64,000 nt of DNA from Lotus japonicus. Taxonomy: Eukaryota > Streptophyta > Magnoliopsida > Fabales > Fabaceae. Shown here one piece after another: positions 3,112-64,000 of the stretch. The position numbers and the translations under genes are program-made. The stretch spans positions 65,086,732 to 65,150,731 of the forward strand of contig NC_080044.1 in assembly GCF_012489685.1 (NCBI RefSeq), in the 5' to 3' direction. The notes under the pieces were generated by a model. That model was not told the origin of the DNA and did no database searches. It saw only the letters and a list, made by a program, of their open reading frames with translations. The number at the start of each line of letters is the position of its first letter. Position 1 is the stretch's first letter.

Positions 3112-3598
3112 GGTCACTTGGTGGAGATGTGGATTTTAACTCCTTTTCATGGATCTGTTTGTATCTGGTGGCCACAGACTTATAACTTGTTGCTGGATCA
3201 TATTTGGAGGTTGAGCTGTATATTCAAAGGAATTCTTGGAGGCTCCTTGCGTGTGCACTGTTGCTGTTTTGAAGGTGTCTCCTAGGCGTAGTTACTGTGG
3301 GTTGTTCATTGGAAATTCTGTTTTGGCTTTAGAGTGTGAGTACTCTTTTTCCTTACTAGGTTTTCCCAATGGGGTTTTTCCTAGTAAGGTTTTAATGAGG
3401 CTTCCTCTCTAAAATCAGTTTCCAATGGACTCGGGTGGGTTTGTGGGGTATGTAGGATCTCTGTATTGTAACTATTATAAAGTTACATTTAGTTTACTCT
3501 TTCTTTCTTTCTTTCAGCTTTCCCTTTTTCTTTTGTATTGGGTTGAAGTACCGCTTGTACTTCTCTTTAATATAGTTCCAATTGCTTATAAAAAAAAA
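1..3598 (+). mobile_element. LINE (non-LTR) retrotransposon, 5' end outside window
   Basis: Coding region (1-3111), a 3' untranslated part and a short A-run at 3590-3598 give the usual 3' end of a plant L1-type LINE. The 3' UTR holds a GT-rich block at about 3329-3408 (actctttttccttactagg, then a related inverted copy) that recurs in the minus-strand LINE at 58889-60150. The 5' end is cut by the window edge, so neither element length nor target duplication can be judged. Confidence 0.9.
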
Positions 3599-6128: not shown

Positions 6129-7150
6129 CAGGGTCGGTCCCGACATTTTGGAGGCCCTGGGCAAATAATAAAAATGGACCCCTAATAAAGAGAAATATCT
6201 CTTGGAGATACAACTGCGAGAAATTTCATCAAAATCATTATGTTGGTTCGTTTGACAACGCGACCTTTTGCATTAATTAACAAATAACATGTCAAAAGCC
6301 AAAATGTGGGATTCGAACCCGGTACATAAAAGTAACATAAATAGTTACTAACCACCAGACCGGCTAAAATCATTAATAACATCTTGAACATTAATTATTA
6401 GGTTTAAATACTCTGGAGGTCCCTAAAATTGTCTGCCGTACGAAAATAAGTCCCTGAAATTTTTTTTCCCGATTCCGAATCCCTGAAATTACTTTTTTAA
6501 TCAAAATAAGTCCCTACTCGTGTTTCCAGCCTATGACTCAATTTTTGCTGAGTCATTTATTCCACGTGGCTTTTCTATTTTTTTAAATACACATATTTAA
6601 AAAAAAATTAAACATTTAAATTTAAAATTAAAATGTTATTAACCTAATTAACCCTAAATCTAATTAACCCTAAATCCCTAAAAAGATTTTAATTTTAATT
6701 TTAAATGTTTAAATTTAAAATTAAAATCTTATTAACCTAATTAACCCTAAATCTAATTAACCCTAAATCCCTAAATCTAATTAACCCTAAAAAGATTTTA
6801 AATTAAAATTAAAATATTTTATTTTATTTTTTTAATCCATGTGTATTTAAAAAAAAATAGAAAAGCCACGTGGAATAAATGACTTCGCAAAAATTGTGCC
6901 ACATAGGCTGGAAACACGAGTAGGGACTTATTCTGATTAATTTTTTTTTTCAGGGATTCGGAATCGGAAAAAAAAATTTCAGGGACTTATTTTCGTACGG
7001 GAGACAATTTCAGGGACCTCCAGAGTATTTAAGCCTAATATAACTAAATTTTTTTTTTGGAAAAGTTTAATGTGAATTTTTTTTGGGGACCCCTTCTTTT
7101 TGGAGGCCTTGGGCTGTGGGTCTGCTTGCACAGGCCCATGGCCGACCCTG
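6129..7150. mobile_element. Second non-autonomous hAT-type element, 8-bp TSD with one mismatch
   Basis: The ends are cagggtcgg at 6129-6137 and its inverse ccgaccctg at 7142-7150. They are flanked by attgtcat (6121-6128) and attgccat (7151-7158), an 8-bp target duplication with one substitution. Subterminal blocks (ggaggccctgggc near 6150, ggaggccttgggc near 7100) are also related. There is no transposase. Most of its interior is the fold-back element at 6401-7035. Confidence 0.8.
6401..7035. mobile_element. Fold-back (long inverted repeat) element nested in the hAT copy
   Basis: The arms 6401 to about 6610 and about 6830-7035 are inverted copies of each other over roughly 200 bp with few mismatches. 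They share ggaggtccct, gattccgaatccctgaaa, aagtccctactcgtgtttcc and catttattccacgtggct. The spacer is AT-rich with repeated aattaaccctaaat. Flanks are tta and taa, so a 2-bp TA duplication is possible but not decisive. A transcript through it would fold into a long hairpin. Confidence 0.8.
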
Positions 7151-55700: not shown

Positions 55701-58367
55701 GGCTGGTATGCCGGTACCCAACAACCCCCTTTCGAGAACCTAGCGTGGAGAGTTTATAGTATACCTTCAGCGTGCCCCCCAGTATGATTCAACTCTGACC
55801 CACTTGGCCTACAACTATGAAACCCCCTTCCAGAACTTGCAGCCAGTAGTTTGAGCCTTGCCTTTTGGGAATCTACTCACGACCTTGGCTCTGATATTAA
55901 TTGTTGGACTGAGCATTTACCATCAGGCCAAAAGCTATAGTAGTTAGCTAAAGCATAACACTTCTACTTAAACCTATCGCTAGCTCTACACTTTGATTTG
56001 ATTCCGGTCCTTCCAGACCTTGCCATGGCAGTACGCCAACCACAACATATTGCCAGTTGCAACCATTAGATTTTTTGTTTGGATTTGTTTGGTTGAAATT
56101 AAATTTTATATTTTGGCACTATGTACAGCCGTGGACATAGTAAACTTCATACAAAACTGTACTAAACTGGTATACTGCTTCGAGCTGACCAATATCATGT
56201 CCCTTTTATGAGGTGCCGGCTCTAAGATATATTGTATTTTCTCCTCTTTCATTGCCCATATTAATATTTTATTAACTTCCGTGGGAACTGTAACTAATTT
56301 TGCTTCTGTTAATAGCTTCAATTCTAGCTGTCTGATGGCTCTTATCTTGTGTAGGTCTGAGTGGATTGATAACACTTGATCTCTTTGGAGCACGTATTTC
56401 AGACTCTGGAACTGCATATTTACGATGTATGTATATCCCAATTTTAGCATTGTTGATTTCCTTCATTCGTTTTGGCATAACCATAGATTACTTGAGATTT
56501 AGGATGCCTGATTGCAAATTACAACTTAGTAACTTGTAAAATATGGGAGATTATAGGGTGGGGCATTTTTTTAGTGTTCCACCGGTGATTCACTGATTGT
56601 AGCCGTTGTAATGATTTTTTAATTGAAGATCCTGAGGTAGTAACAGTGTAACACCGGTGGACCACTTAAAAACTGGTCCATCCTATAACTTCGTGTAAAA
56701 TATAATTAAGTTATTTAAGTAGTCTACATTTGAAATGGGAATGTATGAGTATTCGAAATTCATAAGTTACATCCACACACCACCACAAAACCCGAAGCCT
56801 AAGGTAATGGATGTGTGTGTTCTTTTAGCTTATATACACAATGTGGGACTTCTTTGAGTCACACTTGGTATTCTCTAATAATGAGTAACAATCAGATTCT
56901 CAGCATTTTCCCATGGCCTTATTCGGGGATATTTGATGTTTATAATACGGGTTTGGGGCTGCGTATGATATGCTATGAAAATGGTATAATTGTTCAAGAG
57001 AATAATACATCCACATGCGGTGTTATGCTTCTGATCCTTATTATATATTTATTTTAAATGCATTTATCGTATATGAGAAATCTAGAAGTGCTGAACTGGT
57101 CAAACCAGTCTTTATTAAAGGTTAACCAAACAAGTGGTGCCAAGCTAAAGTATCTTCTACATGTGGTTTCTGTTTCAATGCTTATATTGGAATTTTTTCT
57201 GCTTGTTGACAATAATGATCATCTTATCTTACACGCTCCTTTCTGGAATTGATGTATAAATCTAATGGAAACTCTTGTGAGTTTATCTAGTTTCATTAAC
57301 TTTCCTTTTAGCCATCACAATGTTATCATTTAACTTAATGAAATCAGCAACAAACTCTGGTTCTTTTATACTTATGGACTGAATGAATCCATGTTTCTTT
57401 TATTTTTGTATGCCTATACTTCGAGAGTAAACAATATAATGGCCCGAACCAAAAGCAATAATAAATGGAGGTAGTACTACATGTGGTTTCTGTTTCAATG
57501 CTTATATTGGAATTTTTTCTGCTTGTTGACAATAATGATCATCTTATCTTACACGCTCCTTTCTGGAATTGATGTATAAATCTAATGGAAACTCTTGTGA
57601 GTTTATCAAGTTTCATTAACTTTCCTTTTAGCCATCACAATGTTATCATTTAACTTAATGAAATCAGCAACAAACTCTGGTTCTTTTATACTTATGGACT
57701 GAATGAATCCATGTTTCTTTTATTTTTGTATGCCTATACTTCGAGAGTAAACAATATAATGGCCCGAACCAAAAGCAATAATAAATGGAGGTAGTACTAC
57801 TGAGAAATCCCATTACACACCAGCTTTTTTTTCTCATTTCATTTAGAATATTAAACAAAACTAAAGCTGATTGAAATAATTGCAAAATAGGGGTCTGCAT
57901 TGGCTCAAGTCTTATTTCCTTTTTTTTCCTTCTTATCATACAGCCTTCAAGAAACTGCAATCCCTTGAAATATGCGGTGGAGGAATAAGTGATGCAGGTG
58001 TTAAAAACATAAGAGAAATTGTCTCCCTGACCCAGCTAAACCTGTCCCAGAATGGCAACTTGACAGATAGAACTTTGGAATTGATATCTGGTATTTTCTG
58101 CTAGTCTTCATTACATCATATCTTCCTTGCGGCTACTTCTCTTCAACATCAATGAACTCTGTTTATCTTTATCTGAATACAGGCATGACTGCACTGAGGT
58201 CGCTGAATGTTTCAAATTGTCGCATAACCAACGAGGGACTGCGCCATTTGAAGCCATTAAAGAACTTACGCTCTCTTACCTTGGAATCGTGCAAGGTTAC
58301 TGCTTCTGAAATTAAGAAGCTTCAGTCAGCTGAGCTTCCAAATTTGCTAAGCTTTCGGCCAGAATAG
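49778..58367 (+). CDS. Leucine-rich-repeat protein with N-terminal MGGxC lipidation site, 15 exons, 578 aa
   Basis: Exons: 49778-49975, 50072-50200, 50310-50517, 51166-51312, 52057-52131, 52267-52338, 52590-52661, 52914-52985, 53091-53162, 53278-53349, 53778-53849, 54400-54543, 56355-56426, 57944-58090, 58183-58367. After MGGICSRKR (myristoylation/palmitoylation-like) comes a basic linker. A conserved LPRDISQQIFNELV helix follows, resembling an F-box-like start but without a clear F-box. About 17 LRRs of 24 residues (GLTNLxxLNLDxxxITDxGLxxL) run to the C-terminus. Cysteine-containing LRRs of this kind often bind proteins. It closely resembles the uncharacterised Arabidopsis protein I recall as At1g15740. 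No function is established, so no symbol is given. Confidence 0.92.
54780..56010. repeat. Retroelement-like sequence in LRR intron 12
   Basis: The sequence at about 55560-55990 includes ccggtacccaacaaccccc and ccttggctctgatatta. The latter is the inverse of a PBS-like tatcagagcc, suggesting a minus-strand LTR relic. The limits are unclear. Confidence 0.35.
57161..57800 (+). repeat. 320-bp tandem direct duplication in LRR intron 13
   Basis: 57161-57480 and 57481-57800 are direct copies. They start atgtggtttctgtttcaatg and end ggaggtagtactac. I find one difference in the stretch compared (tctag or tcaag near 57288 and 57608). Both lie between exons 13 and 14, so coding is unaffected. Confidence 0.9.
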
Positions 58368-58888: not shown

Positions 58889-60150
58889 TTTTTTTTTTGA
58901 CAGCAAAATAAACTTTATTGGATAAGAGATTGAAAAGCACCATGAGAACAAGCCTCTCATGAGAGCTAAAAATCAAACCACATAAAAAACTACTTTTGGG
59001 GAAGCACACTTGGGACAGAGCCTCATTAAAACCTTTATTAGGAAAACCCAGTGGGAAAAAACCTAGTAAAGGAAAAAGAGTACTCAAATCATCAAGTGAA
59101 TAAAACCCCCTAAAAAAACCATTACACCCACCATTGAACTGACACAAAGACAAACCCTTATCTACCAAAAAACAATTACGTGGCCCAATCTGTTATAAAG
59201 CTTAAGACAATCCTTCAACATACAGTAGAAGCAAACCAGCTCCCCATTAGTCACCAATTCAATAAGTTTCAACGAACCCTCGAAACCAAACCACACCAAC
59301 CAAGCATATAACAAGTTCATAGGTGAAAACCCACAGAGAACAAAATCACATGTCCGCAACCCCCATCCACCACAAATAAATCTCGAGGAAACAAACCAAG
59401 TGACCTTCATCAGTCACAAAAACACAACCTTCCCCATAAACATCATTGCAACTCAGGATGATTTAATTTGATCTGATTCTTAAGTCTTTGAATCATCATC
59501 TCTTCATCACCATTGTAAACCACCCCCACCTGTTTCCCAACCTTCCATGTCTGTCGAGCCCTTGAATCCAGGTCCATAAAATCAAACTCATCGTCAGAAC
59601 ACATTAAATCCACTGCCGCCTGTTGTTTTGACTTGTTCTTGCTTCCCCTCGGTCTTCCTCTCTTTGCTTTAGGCTTGACCACTTTTCGACCTCCCCCAGC
59701 AGCACCGGGCCCTCCTACCCTTTTTCGCCCTCTTCGTTGTTTTATTTTAGCCAAAATTTCATCATCTGAATACACACTCTCCACCACATCGGGTGCCACG
59801 AATGTTGCTTTATCTTTCTCGCCCTCTTCAACATCCACACATGTGATTAATTTTTTGTGGTGCCCTCCTTGACCCCTTTTACGAGCTAGTGCCTTCACTT
59901 CTCTAAAACTTCTCTTGGTATTATTTGATTTTATTTCCTCCTGCTGAATACTGCCACACACGACATCCCCTGGGCCCTTTCCATCCGTTAAAAGTTTTAA
60001 TCCCAGTCCACTACTAGAAGCCTTTTTTTGTGGATTAATCCAAACATTGCTTTGTCCAGCTGGCCAAACAAATCCTTCACCCCAATTAAAGCAAGCATTA
60101 TAATGGGGAATTAGATTTCCCACCCACTGGTTTAGAATTGCCACCCTAGC
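58889..60150 (-). mobile_element. LINE derivative: ORF1 end joined to 3' UTR, ORF2 absent
   Basis: A T-run at 58889-58898 (poly(A) on the minus strand) precedes a 3' UTR. On the minus strand this UTR carries gagtactctttttcctt, actagg and aaggttttaatgaggc, matching the 3' UTR of the LINE at 1-3598. Only an ORF1-like frame (59443-60144) is upstream. No endonuclease or RT is present in 1.26 kb. The 5' end is approximate. Confidence 0.75.
59443..60144 (-). pseudogene. LINE ORF1 C-terminal part with AT-hook-like motifs
   Basis: The 233-residue open frame has a basic centre with RRGRKR and KAKRGRPRGSKNKS (an AT-hook core RGRP). It has a C-terminal TWKVGKQVGVVYNGDEE block, like the end of plant LINE ORF1 proteins, which bind element RNA. 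The frame runs open upstream of the first ATG, and no zinc knuckle is seen, so the N-terminus is missing. A host AT-hook protein is a weaker alternative, because the LINE 3' UTR follows it directly. Confidence 0.6.
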
Positions 60151-60177: not shown

Positions 60178-60505
60178 TCCGGGACTTAAACCTCCATACC
60201 AGTCCAGAGGTTGATGTTCTGGACTAGTCTGAGAGTTAAAAGTTCGGATTCTTTAGTTACAGTTAAAATAACATGACTATAGTCCAATTGCAGCAAATAT
60301 AACATGACTTTAAAATTGAAAAGTTACATAATCCAATTTAAACAAAATTACAATACATAATCCAAGTTAAGCATTGGAAAAGTAAAGCAAAATAACAATA
60401 CATAATCTAAGTTCAGCATTTCAAAAGTTAGACAAATAGTCCTTAATATAGAATTAGTAAAGAACTAATATTAATCTTCTGTTATGTTTGTGAAGCTTCC
60501 AGATG
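60178..60505 (-). other. MULE-OTU-like 3' tail fused to the HROB-like gene
   Basis: Downstream of the interrupted last exon, the sequence resembles the 3' end of the MULE-OTU element at 62765-63123. The coding tail shares 21 of 24 bases including the stop (60471-60494 against 63100-63123). A flank word gtctgagagttaaaa (about 60227) is close to gtccgagagttgaaaa (about 62880), at a similar distance from the stop. AT-rich sequence lies between. Confidence 0.45.
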
Positions 60506-60510
60506 GAGGT

Positions 60511-61716
60511 TGTAAGATCAAGTTTTGATCTAGTAGTACAACTCTATGTTTTGATGATTACAAGTTAACCTTTTGATATGAACAATTGTGGTACTCTAAC
60601 GTGTTTTTCTGAGTGTGCTATTTACAGGCTCTGACCTCAACTCAATCTCACACAAATCAGAAGCACTGTGTTAAAGAGCGACCCAAGCAACGCTTTCGCA
60701 TTCACCATGTTCAGTATGAACAGTGAAAAAGCTTCAGAAGTTCTGAAGTTATACAAACTCTGATGTGGACTCAGTCACTAGAAGTTCTGAAGATCCAGAA
60801 AGTCTGATAACCAAGAAACACTGAAGGCTCAGATATTCTGATGGTGTAGAAGACTCTGAAGATCCAGAAGCTGATTAGTGAAATTCTGATGTCCAGAAGC
60901 AAGATACTCTGAAGACCATGTTCTTCCCTCTGAGTTCAGAATCAGAAGAAACAATGGTCAGAGGATCTGGGCTTTCCCTCTGACTCTGATCAACCGGCTT
61001 CACAAGTTCCAATATGAAGCATTCCCCTGATCAGATGTCTCCTAGGTTTAAAGGTCAAGTCGCTATCCAAGTACAAAAGCAACTGTACCTTCCTGACGAC
61101 CTACCTAACAGTCTCAGACATAGCAGAAGCTGGATTTTCCAGAACTGCCCTCCAACGGTAGCATTTTCCATGCAACGCTCAACCCTAATCCTTGGAGTAT
61201 ATAAAGAGGCTGAAGACTGAAAGAAGCGGCTAGAAGCATTCACATACGCGCAAGACATATTCAAATTCTTCTAAGCTTTCTTTCATCTGAAATTCATTGA
61301 GTTTACTATTAGCTTTTTAGAAGAAAATCCCTTGTAAACAATTCTTTGATAAACAGTTTGTTTAGTTCCTTTAGGAGATCAAGGTTGATCGGATCCTAGA
61401 GAAGACTAAGAGAGTGAATCTTAGTGTGAGCTAAGTCAGTGTAATTGTTAGTCACTTGTAGGTTTCAAGTGCAGTTGTAACTCTTACCTGATTAGTGGAT
61501 TGCCTTCATTCTAAGAAGGAAGAAATCACCTTAACGGGTGGACTGGAGTAGCTTGAGTGATTTATCAAGTGAACCAGGATAAAATCCTTGTGTGCTTTTC
61601 TATCTCTTATCTTTAGCACTTAAGTTCTCGAAAGATTTGTCAAAATCTTTAAGGTGGAAGCTTTATCTTGAAAACGTTATTCAAACCCCCCCTTTCTACC
61701 GTTTTTCATACCTTCA
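60511..61716 (+). mobile_element. Solo copia-type LTR (1206 bp) in the last HROB-like exon
   Basis: It starts tgtaagatcaagttttgatc and ends ttcataccttca. It is flanked by a perfect gaggt at 60506-60510 and 61717-61721. Inside are tatataaa (61198-61205), repeated gaagttctga or agatccagaag words and a C-run near 61685-61692. There is no internal region or second LTR, so the element was lost by LTR-LTR recombination. It lies on the plus strand, antisense to the gene it interrupts. Confidence 0.9.
61198..61205 (+). promoter_or_regulatory. TATA box of the solo LTR
   Basis: tatataaa in a typical copia LTR position, followed by a pyrimidine-rich leader. Transcription from here would run rightward, antisense to the HROB-like exons. 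Confidence 0.5.
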
Positions 61717-62521
61717 GAGGTGCACTGTCCTTTGGAAATACCTGTATAATGAAAACAGATTCAAATGCTTTGTTGTAGATGTGGAAAAGATTCAAATGCT
61801 TTATTTTAGATGTGGAAGAAGATTATCATACCTTGACTACATTGGACAAGGTTATATTCAGATAACAATTAGACTTTCTAGGAGAGAACACAGCGACCTG
61901 AAAGCAAAGTGAAGAAACGATGTGATGTCCAAGTTGTCCAAAGAAGCTTAAAATGTTAAAGTTGCCTATAGATTAACCTTTTGGAGAAGCAGAACAGATC
62001 CAACAGTTATGTCTTTCGCAAATACGCTTTCAGTGAAGACCTTGTGATGGATACTAGCGCCAACAGTGCCCGTAGGGTCCTGAATCTCAATCTCAGATGT
62101 CATGAGAGAAACATGAATATAACATTTCACTGAAATATAAGGAGGAATAAGGAAATACCTTGAGTGTAACTGTTGCATCTCCAAACCCATTGGGATTGCA
62201 GGATTTGATAACACCGATGACGTGATCTACTCTTTCATGATGGTGAGTGATTGCGCCCAGAGGAGTGGCAGATCCGTTTAATTGCAGGGCTGAAAGCCAA
62301 GCATTGGATTGGAAATCGGGATCGGTGTCGTGGCCGTCTTGGAGGACTTGCCTAACGAATTGTTGGGTTGAAATGTTTGGTTTGTCGTCGGTGGATCTGC
62401 GGTGAATCATGGCGGCCTGGACGGCGCCAGCTGGGCCGGGAATGAGAGGACGAGAGCTGGAGGCAAGGTTGTCTTGGCGTTTGCAAGGGCGGATGAAGGT
62501 TGATGGTGGATCTTGTTCCAT
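61706..62521 (-). CDS. HROB: HROB-like homologous-recombination OB-fold protein, last exon cut by an LTR, 188 aa as it stands
   Basis: Exons (5' to 3'): 62521-62159, 62079-61978, 61897-61832, then 61741 into the LTR to TGA at 61708-61706. The family (human HROB/MCM8IP) brings the MCM8-MCM9 helicase to recombination sites. The protein shows IPGPAGAVQAA near residues 27-37, a family-typical motif. An OB-fold follows (about 95-180: HVIGVIKSCN, DPTGTVGASIHHKVF, GSVLLLQK, VAVFSPRKSNCYLNITLSNVVKVF). An in-frame TAA lies 12 nt before the ATG, so the N-terminus is fixed; a leader intron could end at the tgcag near 62541. The LTR replaces the last 11 codons by 3 (LKV) and a stop. The OB-fold looks whole. 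Function may survive. Confidence 0.8.
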
Positions 62522-63099: not shown

Positions 63100-63423
63100 T
63101 CAATCTTCTGTTATGTCTGTTAAATCAAAGTTGGTAATAACACGAGGACCAATCCAAACAGTGTGTTCAGCCATAAATCTATCCAAACGCTCTTTATACG
63201 GTTTACACCATTCGGACTCGGGTTCTTCAACGTTGTATTCCCATTGGGGAGCAATTGGCGGCATAGGATGTCCAGACACCAACTTCAGCTACATTTAAGA
63301 GTATAATAGTAAAATTAGATATATTTCAATATAAATTGTTTAACGTGACAAGAGAGTGTATTAATAAAAAAGAAGATATGTATTTAATTGAGGATATACC
63401 TGTACAAAGTGATTGGTCACGTG
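63100..63423 (-). pseudogene. C-terminal end of an OTU-type cysteine protease domain (MULE-OTU protein)
   Basis: Exons 63423-63400 and 63289-63100, separated by a GT-AG intron (donor caggtatat, acceptor tgtag). They read HVTNHFVQ, then LKLVSGHPMPPIAPQWE, then PYKERLDRF. In plant proteins that join a MULE transposase to an OTU domain, NHFVQxxLxxGHPMPPIxxQW carries the catalytic His region near the C-terminus. The rest of the OTU domain is missing. It sits directly against the transposase fragment, one base out of frame. Confidence 0.6.
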
Positions 63424-64000
63424 GTGAACCTTGGATGATCCTTACACATATCACACATGTCGCTCCATTCCTCCTGAAATTGTGTAGCTGTTTCCGCATA
63501 TACCACTTCATTCCACTTTTGCATCACTAAGGCTTTAAAATCCTTGGTGTCAACCCACAATTTGCACTTTGCCTCAACATTCTTGTTTATGTGGAATAGG
63601 CATAGTAAATGGGTAGCCTCAGGAAAAATATTCCGAACAGCACTGAGTAAAGCCAATTCCCTATCAGTCACAATCACTCCAGGTAATCGGGCAGGGTCAG
63701 CAAGTAGAGATTTCATGCACTCCAAGGCCCAAACATAGTCAGGTGTGCGCTCACGAGTCATGTAGCAAAATGCAATGGAGTAAGTCAGACCAGTAGAAGT
63801 GAGGCCAACCATTTCAAGCAATGGAATTTGAAATTTGTTTGTCTTGTATGTGCAATCCATGATTACCACGTGAGGGAATGTGTTGAAGAGTTTAATAGCA
63901 TTAGGATGAGCCCAGAAATGTTCCATAATGACACCCGAATCTTCTTCATGTCTTTCAAAGTGAACATAGTTGGCTTCTGCCAACTTCTTCAGCAAATATT
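63417..64000 (-). pseudogene. MULE (Mutator-like) transposase fragment
   Basis: The MULE transposase domain shows a first catalytic Asp in VVIMDCTYKTNKF (about 63855) and a second in VIVTDRELAL (about 63670). A conserved HLLCLFHINKNV follows (about 63600). The third catalytic acid and the SWIM zinc finger, expected downstream, are missing because the frame stops at 63419-63417 next to the OTU fragment. The 5' part lies beyond the window. The transposase cuts and moves the element; this copy should be inactive. Confidence 0.85.

Follow-up and report, generated by a model that had tools for sequence, protein, structure and literature searches.

Several described systems come close to the locus reported here. 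MULEs with captured, conserved host genes are already known: in portions of the sources on Kaonashi (KI/KIU) and other ULP1-MULEs, a MULE lineage with many copies carries a captured host gene whose conservation has been read as a sign of use (PMC13317346, PMC2528002). Pack-MULEs capture genomic exons together with their introns and are usually small and non-autonomous, according to an excerpt of PMC9168764. MuDR carries a further gene, mudrB, next to that of its transposase, with a possible helper role in transposition, and the same excerpt describes MURB as needed for insertion (PMC9168764). It also calls the route by which cut-and-paste MULEs reach high copy number unclear, for Abermu, and gives gap repair as one idea (PMC9168764). 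Human HROB (MCM8IP, C17orf53) is presented in sections of two further sources: the region before its OB fold contacts MCM8 and the OB fold contacts MCM9 (PMC11055865), the N-terminal third of MCM8IP binds RPA1 via acidic motifs, and loss of MCM8IP impairs long-tract gene conversion (PMC7290032).

Here we describe a 64,000-nt stretch of Lotus japonicus DNA (the window; positions past its end are given as extended positions) in which a Copia LTR lies inside an HROB gene that itself lies inside a MULE, a nested anatomy we regard as practically certain. What appears to be new is HROB as the cargo: in the open-licence literature, neither HROB nor DUF4539 was found described as part of a MULE, and PMC6446971 makes no mention of OTU or OB-fold. 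As far as the partial sources describe it, the Kaonashi cargo is a ULP1 protease carried in reversed orientation by a non-TIR element, whereas the Lotus cargo is an OB-fold repair factor encoded on the transposase's strand of an element with inverted-repeat ends (PMC13317346, PMC2528002). No ULP1 match was found among the ORFs scanned in the Lotus element, a scan that covered part of the frames. As in Pack-MULEs, the captured exons come with introns, and introns 1-3 of the transposon HROB stand at the host positions (intron 3 is missing from the subfamily C and D loci examined); unlike these elements, which are usually small and non-autonomous, Lotus subfamily A has a transposase frame open for 892 codons beside HROB. 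The likeness to MuDR lies in the second gene beside the transposase, and the difference, by description, in the homology of the Lotus second gene to a host repair factor. The cargo resembles HROB itself in its match to the whole Pfam HROB profile, its OB-fold model and its place in a clade adjoining the Lotus host HROB, and it retains the LIPGPAG region and the OB fold. Compared with host HROB, it is missing the acidic stretch at the N-terminus as well as the region that follows the OB fold, and it ends in a different C-terminal peptide. Lotus transposons are reportedly the subject of a study by Holligan et al. in 2006.

The MULE lies on the minus strand and extends from 60106 to the window end at 64000 and on to extended position 68758. 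It is flanked by a target-site duplication, ATTATAATG, perfect over 9 bp (left copy 60097-60105, right copy extended 68759-68767) and within the 7-12 bp characteristic of MULEs. The GGGAATTAGATTTCCCACC-type inverted repeats at both ends agree at 94% across 51 bp, a span that takes in the palindromic duplication, with 45 of 60 bases identical at the best offset. A plant mobile domain gene (PF10536, about 65.6-67.9 kb extended, past the window end), the MULE transposase gene and HROB are all encoded within it on the minus strand. The MULE transposase domain PF10551 was found on the window ORF (E 2.2e-26) in an exon spanning 63417-64000 and on to extended 64523; the transposase also matches AFT, with a sub-threshold match to FAR1, and the last exon of its gene (63100-63288, minus strand) ends ...ITNFDLTDITED-stop. 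This gene is interrupted in the window by an internal deletion that cuts at about 63423 and joins the transposase exon to the end of a SWIM/OTU-like part; L043, a longer relative, has a transposase gene that continues into that part. Pfam returned 0 SWIM or OTU families at E 0.1 for the C-terminal transposase exon (L050:4247-5416), and the label SWIM/OTU-like is our assumption, made from sequence motifs and from the source names of homologues (P0112 and P0116, 'OTU domain-containing').

Coding pieces on the same strand flank the MULE at 59443-60105 and at extended 68858-70471. The right flank matches RRM_1 and DUF4283, the left flank has no Pfam match, and the two are possibly one gene split by the MULE. 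To the left of the element, a 70-bp stretch (59019-59086) matches the opposite strand at 3337-3402 with 88% identity. Elsewhere in the window, a 300-bp direct repeat with 100% identity and 320-bp spacing (57157-57776) seems to lie within an intron of a gene whose product, judged by eye, is leucine-rich-repeat-like; it reflects either tandem duplication in the recent past or an effect of the assembly. Two nested inverted-repeat pairs at 6396-7040, one of 93 nt (96%) and the other of 99 nt (77%), are perhaps a small inverted-repeat element.

The cargo HROB gene, also on the minus strand, comprises exon 1 (62159-62521), exon 2 (61978-62079, with the start placed by annotated homologues and the host gene), exon 3 (61832-61897) and an exon 4 that now spans 61706-61741 and ends LKV-stop inside the LTR. 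The spliced protein of 188 aa has the C-terminus VFPKDSAP-LKV, with its stop at 61706, and matches Pfam HROB (PF15072) over profile positions 1-85 of 85 (E 1e-27). A preliminary description of the locus had read three intact exons upstream of an LTR that splits the final exon and exchanges 11 residues for LKV and a stop. We find that the exon 1-3 frame on the minus strand indeed reads through, and that the displaced codons, PSGSFTNITED-stop, lie stranded on the minus strand at 60471-60510, an ending that homologues share. The frame normally runs past the LTR site, as that description implied: annotated Lotus homologues have the same type of tail, and the site is empty in 29/29 sibling copies.

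An AlphaFold2 model of the homologue P0001 has an OB fold at residues 97-179 (block means 92-97), and its last 16 residues score 74 and 45. Foldseek matched the HROB model to OB proteins including RPA1, Teb1 and POT1; normalised to query length, the TM-scores among the matches listed are 0.31-0.42. A sequence search for a close solved structure gave chance-level matches only (E 0.15 and 0.76). As modelled, the LTR leaves the OB fold whole and removes a tail of predicted disorder. Because the transposase is deleted and the HROB tail lost, the window copy is expected to be without function. Because the gene is MULE cargo and a separate host-type HROB exists, loss of the tail would be expected to matter little to the plant.

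The LTR occupies 60511-61716 on the plus strand (1,206 bp, with TG...CA ends, TGTAAGATCA...CATACCTTCA), and we call it solo since a GAGGT duplication abuts both of its ends (60506-60510 and 61717-61721). The duplication is perfect, as first described, and the 5 bp are present once in each of the 29 siblings read. A TATATAA box-like site of putative function lies on the plus strand at 61198-61204, in agreement with the proposal that the LTR promoter points antisense to HROB. The suggestion that the LTR supplies a poly(A) site fared less well: AATAAA is absent from the minus strand of 60201-61716. Plant poly(A) signals are degenerate, and the missing AATAAA is therefore weak evidence against an LTR poly(A) site.

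There is no second copy of the LTR within the window. In the assembly, its first 199 bp have at least 40 matches at 100% (best 40 of 694 candidates), and of eight family members fetched, seven align from end to end at 98-99%, and the alignment of the eighth covers 638 bp. Three of the eight have ttggtatcagagc directly after the LTR and three have the purine tract caaaaagggggaga directly before it, sequences that we take to be of the primer-site and purine-tract types. One of the eight, L001, is bordered on each side by a 5-bp repeat and looks like a further solo LTR. One relative has integrase upstream of RVT_2, the Copia order (three pieces in a 4-kb stretch, the third a sub-threshold match), and the LTR family is a Copia retrotransposon. 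Its domain order, an LTR of about 1.2 kb and several LTR pairs spaced 10.4-10.9 kb apart resemble Sirevirus-type Copia elements, to which the family may belong. A 61-bp query across the LTR/HROB junction matches in full at the window alone among the best 40 of 255 candidates. Since HROB is MULE cargo and the sibling copies lack the LTR, the LTR is an ordinary nested insertion, routine in itself.

Copies of the HROB stretch of the window are numerous, with at least 40 matches (best 40 of 333 candidates, window included) that extend through the introns; 39 of them stand at 98-100% and the remaining one at 92%. As a sibling set we used the 29 other copies that best match the window. The HROB frame is intact with GT-AG introns in 26 of the 29; two have an altered acceptor and one an early stop. 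The element ends exactly at the equivalent of 60106 in 27 siblings, with differing flanks, and of the other two one is off by a base and one rearranged. The OTU-like piece upstream of HROB is kept in 25/29, and other element parts adjoin HROB in the remaining four. A short derivative (L042 6796-9601) fuses the start of the mobile-domain gene to the SWIM/OTU-like part and keeps HROB.

A Sesbania HROB query identified one Lotus locus at 77% (C4:83447412-83447798; L044/L051), a full host-type HROB gene that ends WTEEQLDELLAFD, together with at least 128 further exon-1 matches at 56-63%, including the window and one partial match (best 129 of 581 candidates). The non-host rows were counted by hand; stops occur in 7 of the 128, one of the seven from reading through an intron. 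A single-copy gene is ruled out by the matches to the HROB stretch and by these exon-1 loci. Among 161 HROB-domain proteins fetched, the cargo tail is present in 14, all from Lotus. Two host end motifs, as we wrote the patterns, match 48/161 and 19/161 of the proteins, and neither matches any of the 14 with the tail. One predicted Lotus japonicus protein (P0061) joins the first exon of the MULE transposase to HROB exon 2 (compare L049 2549-2812), either a read-through splice or an annotation artefact.

We distinguish four subfamilies, each represented by one locus (A, L050; B, L019; C, L048; D, L049). HROB follows the transposase/OTU-like gene on the same strand in all four loci, and in subfamily C the latter gene is a remnant. 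In L048, L049 and L050, a mobile-domain gene, identified by likeness, is encoded opposite to HROB and downstream of it; in the window it lies upstream of HROB on the same strand, and the element has therefore been rearranged. For the best 150 of 460 OTU-like loci, we looked for an HROB exon 1 on the same strand no more than 3 kb downstream. Among the HROB matches listed, such an exon accompanies at least 33 of the 36 A-like loci, 34 of the 41 B-like ones and 16 of the 73 others. Of the 67/150 loci without HROB among the matches listed, 57 belong to the 73-locus third class; as HROB was taken from the matches listed, such misses do not show that HROB is absent.

The four transposon HROBs group together in a tree of 22 rows (100/99); the Lotus host HROB is their sister (98/95), and Sesbania falls outside both (84/81). 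HROB was probably captured once, with introns, from a host gene of the Lotus lineage, and we favour one capture because the transposon genes share derived ends and fall in a single clade. With one sequence per subfamily and some dS near or above 1, dN/dS (Nei-Gojobori) is 0.20-0.43 for HROB between the four subfamilies (upper bootstrap bounds 0.30-0.66), 0.28-0.38 for the transposase exon over three pairs (A, B, D), 0.31-0.67 for the OTU-like piece and tail, and 0.28-0.45 between transposon and host HROB. This last range leaves room for some of the constraint to be older than the capture, should there have been several captures. The dS values of HROB and the OTU-like piece broadly rise together (C-D, 0.36 and 0.43; A-D, 1.10 and 1.20), and the B-C pair lies off the trend (0.53 vs 1.06). 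Among the 29 recent B copies we count 26 nonsynonymous variants at 451 sites, 13 synonymous at 140, 8 intron variants at 245 and one stop, and no clear constraint is seen at this level.

The C-termini of the transposases (NVFIDLGED in A, FDLTDITED in B, SYVDITSD in C and DYVDITTD in D) and of the HROB proteins (ETFTDITED, GSFTNITED, HDFIDITED and HDFIDITEE, in the same order) are alike. A loose tail pattern ends 21 of the 120 listed transposase homologues, among them soybean YVDLNED, chickpea CISLNED and Erythranthe CIDLADD; a stricter pattern ends 2/120, and many of the models appear truncated or fused. Over the last seven residues, a span picked like the patterns after the tails had been seen, BLOSUM62 scores between five transposase tails and those of the four Lotus transposon HROBs are 17-31; against the transposase tails, 72 other HROB tails reach no more than 7, and the tail of the Lotus host protein scores -3 to -4. 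By these scores, the cargo HROB tail resembles the transposase's own C-terminal peptide, and it is this HROB tail that the LTR removes in the window copy. Duplication of transposase 3'-end DNA was rejected as the sole source of the tail: the likeness continues past the stop codon in B and is mainly one of peptide in A, C and D (by eye). A SUMO-interacting motif was also rejected, the consensus not being strictly matched.

These comparisons make it likely that HROB is a selected cargo of the MULE. Under the reading that goes with the preliminary description, the solo LTR would instead interrupt the last exon of an HROB-like recombination gene belonging to the plant itself, a new allele that might alter host repair. 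The local anatomy does match that description; against it, the gene sits inside a MULE as one of at least 128 non-host exon-1 loci, the element ends and the siblings refute it, and the host-type HROB is located elsewhere, on C4. We give this reading hardly any credence.

Passive hitch-hiking in the style of Pack-MULEs, in which a piece of HROB captured by chance spreads unused with its element, would fit the variation among the 29 recent copies and the 57 of 73 third-class OTU-like loci that lack HROB among the matches listed, and capture of gene pieces is frequent in MULEs according to parts of two sources (PMC2528002, PMC13317346). Chance carriage would not, however, lead one to expect HROB dN/dS between subfamilies to be similar to or below that of the transposase parts, or the HROB frame, splice sites and tail to be retained in 26/29 copies, and we consider it unlikely. 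The cargo might also be directed at the host, with the trimmed HROB competing for MCM8-9, or with likeness to a host gene shielding the element from silencing (camouflage). The retained LIPGPAG region and OB fold, together with the lack of the host end motifs (matched in 0/14 tail-bearing proteins), are compatible with such a role, and camouflage via captured genes is discussed in a portion of PMC13317346. Camouflage depends on likeness of DNA, though, and alone would not keep dN below dS; a host-directed cargo appears quite improbable to us. A cargo selected for its use to the MULE is the reading we retain.

A profile search for HROB-domain proteins gave 402 matches from 7,993 candidates scored, with many from Tanacetum and Artemisia and several from Vigna among the 120 listed. 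At least seven Tanacetum coccineum HROB proteins (P0214, P0215, P0217, P0224, P0236, P0241 and P0265) bear the source name 'transposase, MuDR, MULE transposase domain protein'. In P0214, the one of the seven scanned, Pfam detects the HROB domain alone and no MULE domain; no MULE domain was found by Pfam in P0228 or P0041. The Lotus, Anthemideae and Phaseoleae HROB groups form separate clades in a 35-row tree (100/99, 100/99 and 100/100), each placed with relatives from its own family. Vigna and Phaseolus have fast-evolving extra HROB proteins (P0037, P0048, P0056, P0076, P0231, P0233, P0251, P0266 and P0278), and the six Vigna/Phaseolus extras in the tree form one clade adjoining Cajanus. As judged from this tree, HROB-domain proteins multiplied separately in Anthemideae and Phaseoleae. 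Carriage by a MULE is established for Lotus alone; source names hint at it in Anthemideae, and in Phaseoleae we observe multiplication alone.

The overall explanation that we favour, with moderate confidence, is one of nested mobile elements with a selected HROB cargo and a possible gap-repair role. A MULE with a mobile domain gene, a SWIM/OTU-like transposase and HROB inserted in another reading frame, creating the 9-bp duplication. The window copy suffered the internal deletion through its transposase gene before or after a Copia retrotransposon entered exon 4 of the cargo HROB, and LTR-LTR recombination would have produced the solo LTR, leaving the cargo protein cut just after the OB fold. 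The cargo HROB may engage MCM8-9 for repair synthesis, excision gaps would be refilled from a sister copy, and copy number would rise. The shared tail might bring HROB and the transposase to one partner, for which RPA is the natural first candidate. Taken on its own, the role of the cargo in MCM8-9-dependent refilling of excision gaps is a tentative proposal for a protein that keeps the LIPGPAG region and the OB fold. In its widest form, the proposal would have plant MULEs recruiting HROB more than once as an accessory for MCM8-9 gap refilling that turns cut-and-paste into net copy gain, with HROB and the transposase in Lotus sharing a partner via the common C-terminal peptide that the LTR has deleted here; this we hold to be doubtful. 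Because P0214 has no MULE domain and linkage was counted among the matches listed, we treat the selected cargo, the gap-repair role and the repeated recruitment with caution.

The finding of a MULE cargo whose human counterpart promotes long-tract gene conversion makes the gap-repair idea testable. In the Lotus annotation, many proteins with an HROB domain that are called 'uncharacterized' come from transposon genes, and the multiplied HROB proteins of Tanacetum, Artemisia, Vigna and Phaseolus merit the same check.
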